Assembly: GCA_021812385.1 (NCBI GenBank) | Contig: JAKANO010000005.1 | Coordinates: 1-64,000 of the forward strand | From: Pseudomonadota bacterium | GTDB taxonomy: Bacteria > Pseudomonadota > Gammaproteobacteria > Burkholderiales > Thiobacteraceae | DNA length: 64,000 nucleotides | Reading direction: 5' to 3' | Shown here: in pieces, positions 42,576 through 48,783 of the stretch | Position numbering within the stretch: the first letter of the stretch is position 1 | Layout: the number at the start of each line of letters is the position of its first letter | Notes under the pieces: model-generated | The model's input: the letters and a program-made list of their open reading frames with translations, nothing else | Told to the model about the DNA's origin: nothing | The model's database searches: none | Made by a program: the position numbers and the translations under genes

Positions 42576-43027
42576 GCGTCGTCACCTTTCTGGATTCCCG
42601 CCTGCGCGGGAATGACGGGGGTTGGTGGAATGACGGAGGTGGGTGGAATGACGGGGGTTTGCGGGTGACGATCACGTATGCCACTTTCGTCATTCCCGCG
42701 AAGGCGGGAATCCAGTGGGCGGCGGAAATCGGGCATCTCTCCGGTTATCACAAACCAAAGGTCAGCCCAGTCTGGGTTGGTCTTTTCGATCAAGGCCAGT
42801 TTCCATGCGCGATTCCATTTCTTGATGGCCTTTTCTCTGGTGATCGCCGATTCCATTGTTTCGTGCTGTTCAAACCACACCAGCAAGTCGATGCCGTATT
42901 TATCGGTAAATCCTTCCACGACATGGTTCTTGTGTTGCCACACTCGCTTGATGAGGTCGCTGGTTACTCCGACATAAAGAGTACCATTGCGCTGACTAGC
43001 CATGAGATACACCGCTGGCTGCCTCAT
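42572..43027 (-). CDS. GIY-YIG (URI/COG2827-type) endonuclease with repeat-derived C-terminus
   Basis: AVYLMASQRNGTLYVGVTSDLIKRVWQHK...; tail DSRLRGND...VIPAQAGIQ encoded by dRS3-like repeats. Confidence 0.87.
   Translation of the reverse strand: MRQPAVYLMASQRNGTLYVGVTSDLIKRVWQHKNHVVEGFTDKYGIDLLVWFEQHETMESAITREKAIKKWNRAWKLALIEKTNPDWADLWFVITGEMPDFRRPLDSRLRGNDESGIRDRHPQTPVIPPTSVIPPTPVIPAQAGIQKGDDA
42594..42613. repeat. dRS3-like repeat ATTCCC-N8-GGGAAT
   Basis: attcccgcctgcgcgggaat. Confidence 0.9.
42692..42711. repeat. dRS3-like repeat ATTCCC-N8-GGGAAT
   Basis: attcccgcgaaggcgggaat. Confidence 0.9.
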
Positions 43028-46131: not shown

Positions 46132-46198
46132 GTTCCCGCGTATGCGGGAATCCAGGGACTTGCTGGTATTGCTGCTGGATTCCCGCCTACGCGGGAAT
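46132..46198. repeat. pair of dRS3-like repeats in inverted orientation
   Basis: gttcccgcgtatgcgggaatccag ... ctggattcccgcctacgcgggaat. Confidence 0.88.
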
Positions 46199-46253
46199 GA
46201 CGGAAGGGTGCGAGGACGACGAATCTTTGTAGGGCTAACCTGATAGAGGGCAA

Positions 46254-47030: not shown

Positions 47031-47177
47031 GTTTGCTATTTCCCCCTCTCCCCCACCCCTCTCCCCGCTGGGGCGAGGGGTAAATGAGTAGGTTATTGGT
47101 GGCGATTGATGCCGGCGCTACGAGTGGTGGCTTGATTGCGCAAGAATGCGCAATAAGACTGCAAAGCACTTGCACTG

Positions 47178-47255
47178 TTAAAGACTTCTTTAATTGTTGT
47201 GATTAATATTAAAGAGTGCTTTAATATGAAGAAGACCAGTTAAAGATAGCTTTCA
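47178..47255. promoter_or_regulatory. three 16 bp palindromic operator candidates spaced 31 bp upstream of fic
   Basis: TTAAAGacttCTTTAA (47178), TTAAAGagtgCTTTAA (47209), TTAAAGatagCTTTCA (47240). Confidence 0.8.
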
Positions 47256-47256
47256 T

Positions 47257-48405
47257 ATGAAACGTGGCTCCGGCACTTACGTCATCTCCACCACCCTGGG
47301 TGAGTCTGTCCAGGCCTTTGTCCCGCATCCGCTCCCGCCCACCGACCCCGCGCTCGATGTGGATGCATTCGTCGAGCAGAATCGGCAAGCAGAGTTGGCG
47401 CTTGCCCGGCTGTCCGGGGTATCGGGGCTGGTGCCATCGGTAGATTGGTTACTGTATAGCGCGATCCGCAAGGAGGCGTTGCTCACCTCGCAAATAGAAG
47501 GTACGCAGGCCACGTTAACCGACCTGTTCGACGACGAGGCCGGCTTTGCAGTCGGCAATACGGATGACGTGGAAGAAGTCACGAACTACCTGCGCGCCTT
47601 CCGGCTGGTACAAGATAATCTGCGCTCGCCCAAGGGCTTGCCCATCAGCGTGCGCCTCCTTTGCGATGCGCATCGCTTGTTGCTGGATGGGGTGCGGGGT
47701 GCTGGAAAACAACCAGGCGAATTGCGCCGTTCGCAAAACTGGATTGGCGGCACCCGTCCGGGCAACGCCGCCTATGTGCCGCCGCCGGCGGATCGGATAG
47801 CCAGCCTGATGGGGGATCTGGAACGATTCATCCACGACACTTCATCTACGCTTCCGCCGCTGATCAAGATTGCGCTGGCGCATGCCCAGTTCGAGACTAT
47901 TCACCCCTTCCTGGATGGCAACGGGCGCATCGGCCGCCTGTTGATTGCCGCGCTTTTGGAGGATTGGGGCTTGTTGCCCCAGCCGCTGATGTATCTGAGC
48001 GGCTATTTGAAGCAGCATCAGATGGAGTATTACCGACAGCTTTCCATCATCCGCACCGATGGCGATTGGGAGTCTTGGATCGCGTTCTTCCTGGAAGGCG
48101 TGGCAACAGCAGCGGCCGGCGCGGAGCGCGGCATCCTTTCCATCGCCAGCATGGTAGCGGCAGACCGCCGCCGCTTGCTCGAATCGCCCAAGGCCGGCCC
48201 TGCTAGCTATCGTTTGTTCGAGTTATTGCCGATGATGCCGCGCTTCACCATTGAGCGCGTGCGGCGCGAGCTGGACACGAGTTTTCCGACGGCGAATGCG
48301 GCGGTCAAAGTGCTCGAAGATCTCGGCATTGTGAACGAGTTGACCGGGCAGAAAAAGAATCGCAGTTATAGCTACCAGCAATACATCGAGTTGCTGACGA
48401 GATAA
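47257..48405 (+). CDS. Fic-family protein (class II, N-terminal inhibitory helix) with C-terminal winged HTH
   Basis: HPFLDGNGRIGR; inhibitory-type TSQIEGTQ; wHTH-like C-terminus FTIERVRRELDTSFPTANAAVKVLEDLGIVNE. Confidence 0.94.
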   Translation: MKRGSGTYVISTTLGESVQAFVPHPLPPTDPALDVDAFVEQNRQAELALARLSGVSGLVPSVDWLLYSAIRKEALLTSQIEGTQATLTDLFDDEAGFAVGNTDDVEEVTNYLRAFRLVQDNLRSPKGLPISVRLLCDAHRLLLDGVRGAGKQPGELRRSQNWIGGTRPGNAAYVPPPADRIASLMGDLERFIHDTSSTLPPLIKIALAHAQFETIHPFLDGNGRIGRLLIAALLEDWGLLPQPLMYLSGYLKQHQMEYYRQLSIIRTDGDWESWIAFFLEGVATAAAGAERGILSIASMVAADRRRLLESPKAGPASYRLFELLPMMPRFTIERVRRELDTSFPTANAAVKVLEDLGIVNELTGQKKNRSYSYQQYIELLTR

Positions 48406-48420
48406 TTTCAGGACACCGCG

Positions 48421-48684
48421 ATGGATATGAAAAAGATCAATTCCGGCAAGCTGCGCGCTATCGGCTACGATGCGCGCGCCCGGCTGCTGCAAGTGCAGCT
48501 CGACGATTGCAGCATGCTGCAATACAGCGGCGTGGGCGAGGAAGCCTGGCGCCGCTTGAGCAGCTCGGGGTCGGCGTGGAGCTACTATCGCGACAATATT
48601 GAAGATGAATTTACGGCGAAGCGGGTTTCGGCCAATGCGCCTAGCGGTAAGAATCCGCCGGATGATTTGTTTGGGAAGGATTGA
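48421..48684 (+). CDS. KTSC domain-containing protein
   Basis: SGKLRAIGYDARARLLQVQLDDCSMLQYSGVGEEAWRRLSSS. Confidence 0.8.
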   Translation: MDMKKINSGKLRAIGYDARARLLQVQLDDCSMLQYSGVGEEAWRRLSSSGSAWSYYRDNIEDEFTAKRVSANAPSGKNPPDDLFGKD

Positions 48685-48758
48685 GATCTTTAATCACTTT
48701 CTCTGTGGAAAAGCTTCTGGATTTCCGCCTCTCTGTCTTTCCCGTACACCCCTTAGGC

Positions 48759-48778
48759 ATTCCCGCGTTCGCGGGAAT
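48759..48778. repeat. dRS3-like repeat ATTCCC-N8-GGGAAT
   Basis: attcccgcgttcgcgggaat. Confidence 0.88.
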
Positions 48779-48783
48779 GCCGA

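Follow-up and report, generated by a model that had tools for sequence, protein, structure and literature searches.

A conserved 31-bp array of palindromes is the probable autorepression operator of a SoFic-type class II fic gene

We report here an array of three palindromes, termed P1 to P3, directly upstream of the fic gene in a 64,000-nucleotide stretch of DNA (the window) from a Pseudomonadota bacterium of the Thiobacteraceae (GenBank assembly GCA_021812385.1, contig JAKANO010000005.1, positions 1 to 64,000). We consider it likely, with a probability of roughly 0.86, that this array is the operator of fic and is bound by the C-terminal winged helix-turn-helix (wHTH) of the Fic protein itself for autorepression. 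An autorepression array read by Fic had been proposed in a sequence-only reading of the window; the operator, its recognition by Fic's own wHTH and autorepression are upheld here as predictions, based on conservation, on co-variation and on the precedent of CccR, a Fic protein of Yersinia pseudotuberculosis.

The palindromes start at positions 47178, 47209 and 47240, in two steps of 31 bp, and share the consensus TTAAAG-N4-CTTTAA with spacers of 4 nt. P1 (TTAAAG-ACTT-CTTTAA; TTAAAGACTTCTTTAA) extends from 47178 to 47193, P2 (TTAAAG-AGTG-CTTTAA; TTAAAGAGTGCTTTAA) from 47209 to 47224, and P3 (TTAAAG-ATAG-CTTTCA; TTAAAGATAGCTTTCA) from 47240 to 47255, which leaves a single base, 47256, between P3 and the ATG of fic at 47257. 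The earlier description of three 16-bp palindromes with N4 spacers, at 31-bp intervals and ending one base before the ATG, was thus exact in its coordinates. No equally spaced triple of like palindromes arose in 20,000 dinucleotide shuffles of positions 47031 to 47256. In the organism's own genome (3.29 Mb), TTAAAG-N4-CTTTAA with at most one mismatch is present at eight places, three of which are the array, as opposed to 12 places for a reversed control motif, so that single sites outside the array are background. Together, the shuffles and the genome counts mark the array as special and give no sign of a wider regulon, and we rejected a regulon beyond fic given the background level of the other single motif sites. 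An extra perfect palindrome, ATTGCGCA-AGAA-TGCGCAAT, is located just 5' of the array at 47135 to 47154 and is absent as a conserved feature in orthologues.

The fic gene (47257 to 48405, plus strand) encodes a protein of 382 amino acids, which Pfam (Fic_N, 7e-22; Fic, 3e-20), PADLOC and fold matches identify as a SoFic-type class II Fic protein with a C-terminal wHTH. The protein matches the PADLOC model of the SoFic anti-phage defence system (E = 9.6e-112); its score against the NCBIfam SoFic equivalog NF046030 is 146.8 bits, under the curated cut-off of 550. According to the translation, the N-terminal inhibitory motif of class II Fic proteins is present as TSQIEG at residues 77 to 82 (47485 to 47502, plus strand), which fits the pattern (S/T)xxxE(G/N), and E81 and G82 show no variation across 36 homologues. 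The catalytic motif HPFLDGNGRIGR (47902 to 47937, plus strand) fits HPFxxGNGRxxR, and H216, D220, G221, R224 and R227 are invariant in the homologue alignment. An AlphaFold model (pLDDT 90.5) places a wHTH at residues 315 to 381 (48199 to 48399, plus strand), and this agrees both with the best full-length fold matches, 7cb8 (Mycobacterium marinum Fic) and SoFic 3zcn/3eqx, and with the wHTH-like C terminus read earlier from the sequence. The model, together with a comparison of relatives, predicts a recognition helix at residues 343 to 355 (48283 to 48321, plus strand) with F343 as its first residue.

Palindromes are positioned directly 5' of nearly all orthologous fic genes, the encoded proteins being 58-83% identical to the Fic protein of the window. 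Among 49 orthologues, blocks of high information content coincide precisely with P1, P2 and P3, whereas the DNA between and outside the palindromes carries mostly near-zero information. P2 is the most highly conserved of the three, its two halves reaching 1.70 and 1.72 bits per position; P1 is found in approximately 41 of the 49 orthologues, and its half nearest to P2 is the better conserved one. Among 41 scored P1-P2 pairs, 34 are spaced by 31 bp and 5 by 30 bp, and among 44 scored P2-P3 pairs, 33 are spaced by 31 bp and 9 by 30 bp. The orthologue scan, which the sequence-only reading had named as a check on its proposal, thus revealed strong conservation of the array with a dominant period of 31 bp.

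The array is also tied to fic when searched for by itself. We scanned 400 genomes of the order Burkholderiales for the tandem-array pattern alone, allowing up to three mismatches and making no reference to fic, and obtained matches in 20 genomes, compared with one genome for the reversed control. All 20 array loci that were fetched adjoin fic or a remnant of it (17 full-length or frameshifted genes and 3 remnants), and no bacterial array without fic was seen in the 400 genomes. The remnants differ in what they retain: part of the N-terminal region in one (L131), only the N-terminal stretch LGESVQAFVPH in another (L135), and two palindromes fused to nothing but the wHTH in the third (L137/L029). 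At the latter site, in a genome of the same genus (L029, positions 1485 to 1707, G005; the same site as L137), two palindromes are directly joined to an intact wHTH-only remnant. Its wHTH differs from that of the window by 2 amino acids over 54 residues, and the DNA changes are mostly silent, 17 silent ones having been counted over 183 bp of compared sequence. It could result from a recent deletion, or it could be a solo DNA-binding domain that is still in use. A Fic form of 63% identity is carried by plasmids of Citrobacter and Enterobacter, and the one that was read has the same array spacing. Two genomes contain two fic genes each, every gene with its own 31-bp array (G014:C3, 221989 to 243774, and G131, contigs C23 and C41); the genes of one such pair are only about 20 kb apart, and cross-repression is possible.

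No gene downstream of fic is conserved among the orthologues examined, and the unit therefore consists of array plus fic. In the window, a KTSC-domain gene (87 amino acids, 48421 to 48684) begins 15 nt 3' of fic and is possibly co-transcribed with it; in the other orthologues that were examined, the 1 kb following fic contained no KTSC match. A downstream partner antitoxin was rejected because this sole close downstream gene is not conserved. PADLOC identified a type I restriction-modification locus about 1.8 kb from fic. Other features of the neighbourhood are inverted repeats on TTCCCGCG...CGCGGGAAT at 46133 to 46205 and 48757 to 48780, which resemble dRS3-type repeats, and an SFPRRRESR-like stretch at the end of a neighbouring open reading frame, at 43024. 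Exact arrays of two palindromes at 31 bp also occur on four viral contigs that lack fic beside them (L178, 718 to 764; L180, 8147 to 8193; L181, 3833 to 3879; L179, 1157 to 1203). Three of them belong to related phages, in which the array adjoins a conserved intergenic element, and Rfam and tRNA searches of the array-bearing viral contigs gave no match. A control palindrome likewise gave four matches, and a 36-bp spacing gave one; control patterns being about equally frequent, the viral arrays are probably background, and we rejected a phage link.

The same spacing recurs in distant relatives. A sequence-agnostic search for any pair of 8-N4-8 palindromes spaced by 28 to 36 bp identified a spacing of exactly 31 bp in seven of these (L074, L077, L082, L088, L091, L093 and L096), from Planctomycetota, Myxococcota, Bdellovibrionota and Gammaproteobacteria, which form a single clade with the gene of the window (support 100/100). 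Their half-sites are TAGT(A/C)AAG or TGGTCAAG, compared to TATTAAAG in the window's group. Residue 343, which is the start of the modelled recognition helix, where a DNA contact is expected, is F in combination with half-site TATTAAAG and K in combination with TAGT(A/C)AAG; at one and the same half-site position there is T where the protein has F343 and G where it has K343. This suggests that the T/G identity of the half-site follows the F/K identity of residue 343. Two changes on the tree suffice to explain the F/K switch, so that the co-variation rests on few independent events, and a dedicated search returned few near K-type relatives in the window's phylum. Upstream of two other relatives (L081 and L089) there is a different candidate operator, AATAAGCG...CGCTTATT, at about 32-35 bp from centre to centre; their recognition helix contains SRPAA, another class for a recognition code.

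Read from the sequence, a putative -35 element (TTGTGA, 47197 to 47202, plus strand) is situated in the interval between P1 and P2, and a putative -10 element (TTTAAT, 47220 to 47225, plus strand) follows after a gap of 17 bp and coincides with the right half of P2. A strict scan called no sigma-70 promoter upstream of fic, and the candidate hexamers are weak; the TTG of the putative -35 element is moderately conserved at the same offset among orthologues. P2 probably overlaps the -10 region of the fic promoter, and with this placement P1 would lie just 5' of the candidate -35 element and P3 over the ribosome binding region. We propose that the wHTH of Fic binds the three palindromes 5' of its own gene, that Fic dimers on the array would cover the promoter, with P1 beside -35 and P2 over -10, and that dimers at P3 would cover the ribosome binding region. 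By repressing its own gene, Fic would keep a potentially toxic AMPylase at a low level. The period of 31 bp sets all half-sites on a single face of the helix.

Three other explanations of the array were considered. That Fic itself binds the array is what we infer, and some other host regulator could instead bind it and control fic. We regard this as improbable, given that the array accompanies fic into many genomes and plasmids, is absent elsewhere in its own genome, and has a half-site that varies along with the recognition helix of Fic; moreover, a single host factor would be needed across phyla. The position of P3 over the ribosome binding region, where a small hairpin could form, would suit repeats that act not as DNA sites but as RNA, in hairpins that mask the ribosome binding site. 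This is very improbable, and we rejected it on the folding of the leader, which is no better than that of shuffled sequence (z = +0.87). In addition, P1 is upstream of the likely promoter, and an exact 31-bp phase would be meaningless for RNA hairpins. Equally improbable is an origin of the array as the end of a mobile element, an integration site or a chance AT-rich repeat. It is true that fic and its array are clearly horizontally mobile and that remnants of both co-occur, but the array invariably has a fixed spacing and flanks fic on its promoter side, and chance is excluded by the shuffles and the reversed-pattern control.

Within the favoured reading, autorepression by Fic, it is necessary to consider how Fic dimers would be arranged. 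From the left half of P1 to the right half of P3, the 6-mer half-sites of the array follow one another in steps of 10, 21, 10, 21 and 10 bp, the 10-bp steps running from a left to a right half and the 21-bp steps from a right to a left half. Dimers could bridge half-sites 21 bp apart at two possible sites, one composed of the right half of P1 and the left half of P2 (CTTTAA-N15-TTAAAG, 47188 to 47214), and the other of the right half of P2 and the left half of P3 (47219 to 47245). In a sister clade with half-sites TTATTAAAG and CTTTAATAA, the left-to-right distance is 20 bp, compared to 10 bp in the array of the window, whereas the right-to-left distance of 21 bp is maintained (8 pairs; two further counted values are overlapping weak matches). 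The DNA-binding helices of the CccR dimer are 70.2 Å apart (PMC9755527), and 21 bp of DNA correspond to about 71 Å. Because the 21-bp step is common to both clades and matches the CccR dimer, we favour a dimer joining neighbouring palindromes, and one Fic dimer probably spans each 21-bp step. The array would then constitute a short chain, with two bridges over three palindromes.

An arrangement with one Fic dimer on each 16-bp palindrome and three dimers cooperating side by side at 31 bp, which would fit the cooperative array of the sequence-only reading, is possible but somewhat doubtful. Each palindrome is nearly perfect, P2 especially, and the outer halves P1-left and P3-right are conserved well above background, which would be superfluous under pure bridging; one dimer per palindrome therefore is still a serious rival. 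Against it, the step within the palindrome shifts from 10 to 20 bp in the sister clade while the 21-bp step is kept, the 70-Å helix separation of CccR misfits a 10-bp step (PMC9755527), and the inner halves tend to be closer to the consensus than the outer ones (26 to 12 for P1 and 20 to 12 for P3 among orthologues, a modest difference between related sequences). It is conceivable, though unlikely, that bridging Fic dimers form a short DNA-templated filament which sets the catalytic state, with the same contacts silencing the gene and holding or releasing the AMPylase. If so, loss of DNA occupancy, for example upon phage takeover, would trigger expression and activity together.

Class II is the largest class of Fic proteins and includes anti-phage proteins, and the array bears on how the solo enzymes of this class are restrained. 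A cis-element of fixed spacing across several phyla, with a half-site that tracks one helix residue, leads to predictions of the DNA that each protein reads. The array also provides a sequence tag for finding functional Fic members and remnants, and it brings autorepression within reach of a simple reporter assay. The 10/21-bp rhythm of half-sites predicts an unusual dimer that spans two palindromes. As far as we found, Fic autorepression is known as a class of mechanism, and the architecture, phylogenetic depth and likely recognition code are new; our literature search, with most subscription journals outside its reach, returned no description of a 31-bp tandem array.

In Doc/Phd and other autoregulated toxin-antitoxin operons, a toxic module is kept low via palindromic operators in its own promoter, and these are bound by a separate antitoxin. 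By contrast, the predicted repressor, the autoinhibitor and the enzyme are one polypeptide in the Fic protein of the window. Domain layout, fold and PADLOC model are shared with the SoFic anti-phage proteins (3eqx, 3zcn, EcSofic). EcSofic dimerizes via helix 1 and is followed by the gene of an antitoxin, AS1, and the passages of that paper searched here make no mention of an operator array (PMC12249575); unlike the Sofic-AS1 pair with its small downstream antitoxin, fic of the window and its orthologues have no conserved equivalent. Coxiella burnetii CbFic2, also a class II Fic protein with a wHTH, acts on host histones and binds DNA via the wHTH, examined with random DNA only; it differs in having no known operator (PMC10628234). 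The closest parallel in mechanism is CccR, a class II Fic protein with an HTH, whose C-terminal half binds palindromes and represses its own gene (PMC9755527). Mutation of the palindrome abolished binding, a dimer mutant lost repression, dimerization is required for binding, and the binding of DNA was reported as separable from, and independent of, toxicity (PMC9755527). Control of the array by AMPylation of Fic, which the sequence-only reading had raised as a possibility, gained no support here. CccR differs in being described as a T6SS-secreted effector (PMC9755527), and it is only distantly related in sequence to Fic of the window. The operator reported for CccR consists of one wide inverted repeat, AGATAATCAT-N26-ATGATAATCT, with 10-bp half-sites, as opposed to three N4 palindromes at 31 bp here. 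Both proteins have an N-terminal inhibitory helix, the Fic motif and a C-terminal HTH, and the palindromic DNA near -35 and -10 of CccR has its likely counterpart in the conserved palindromes upstream of fic, at the predicted position of the promoter.
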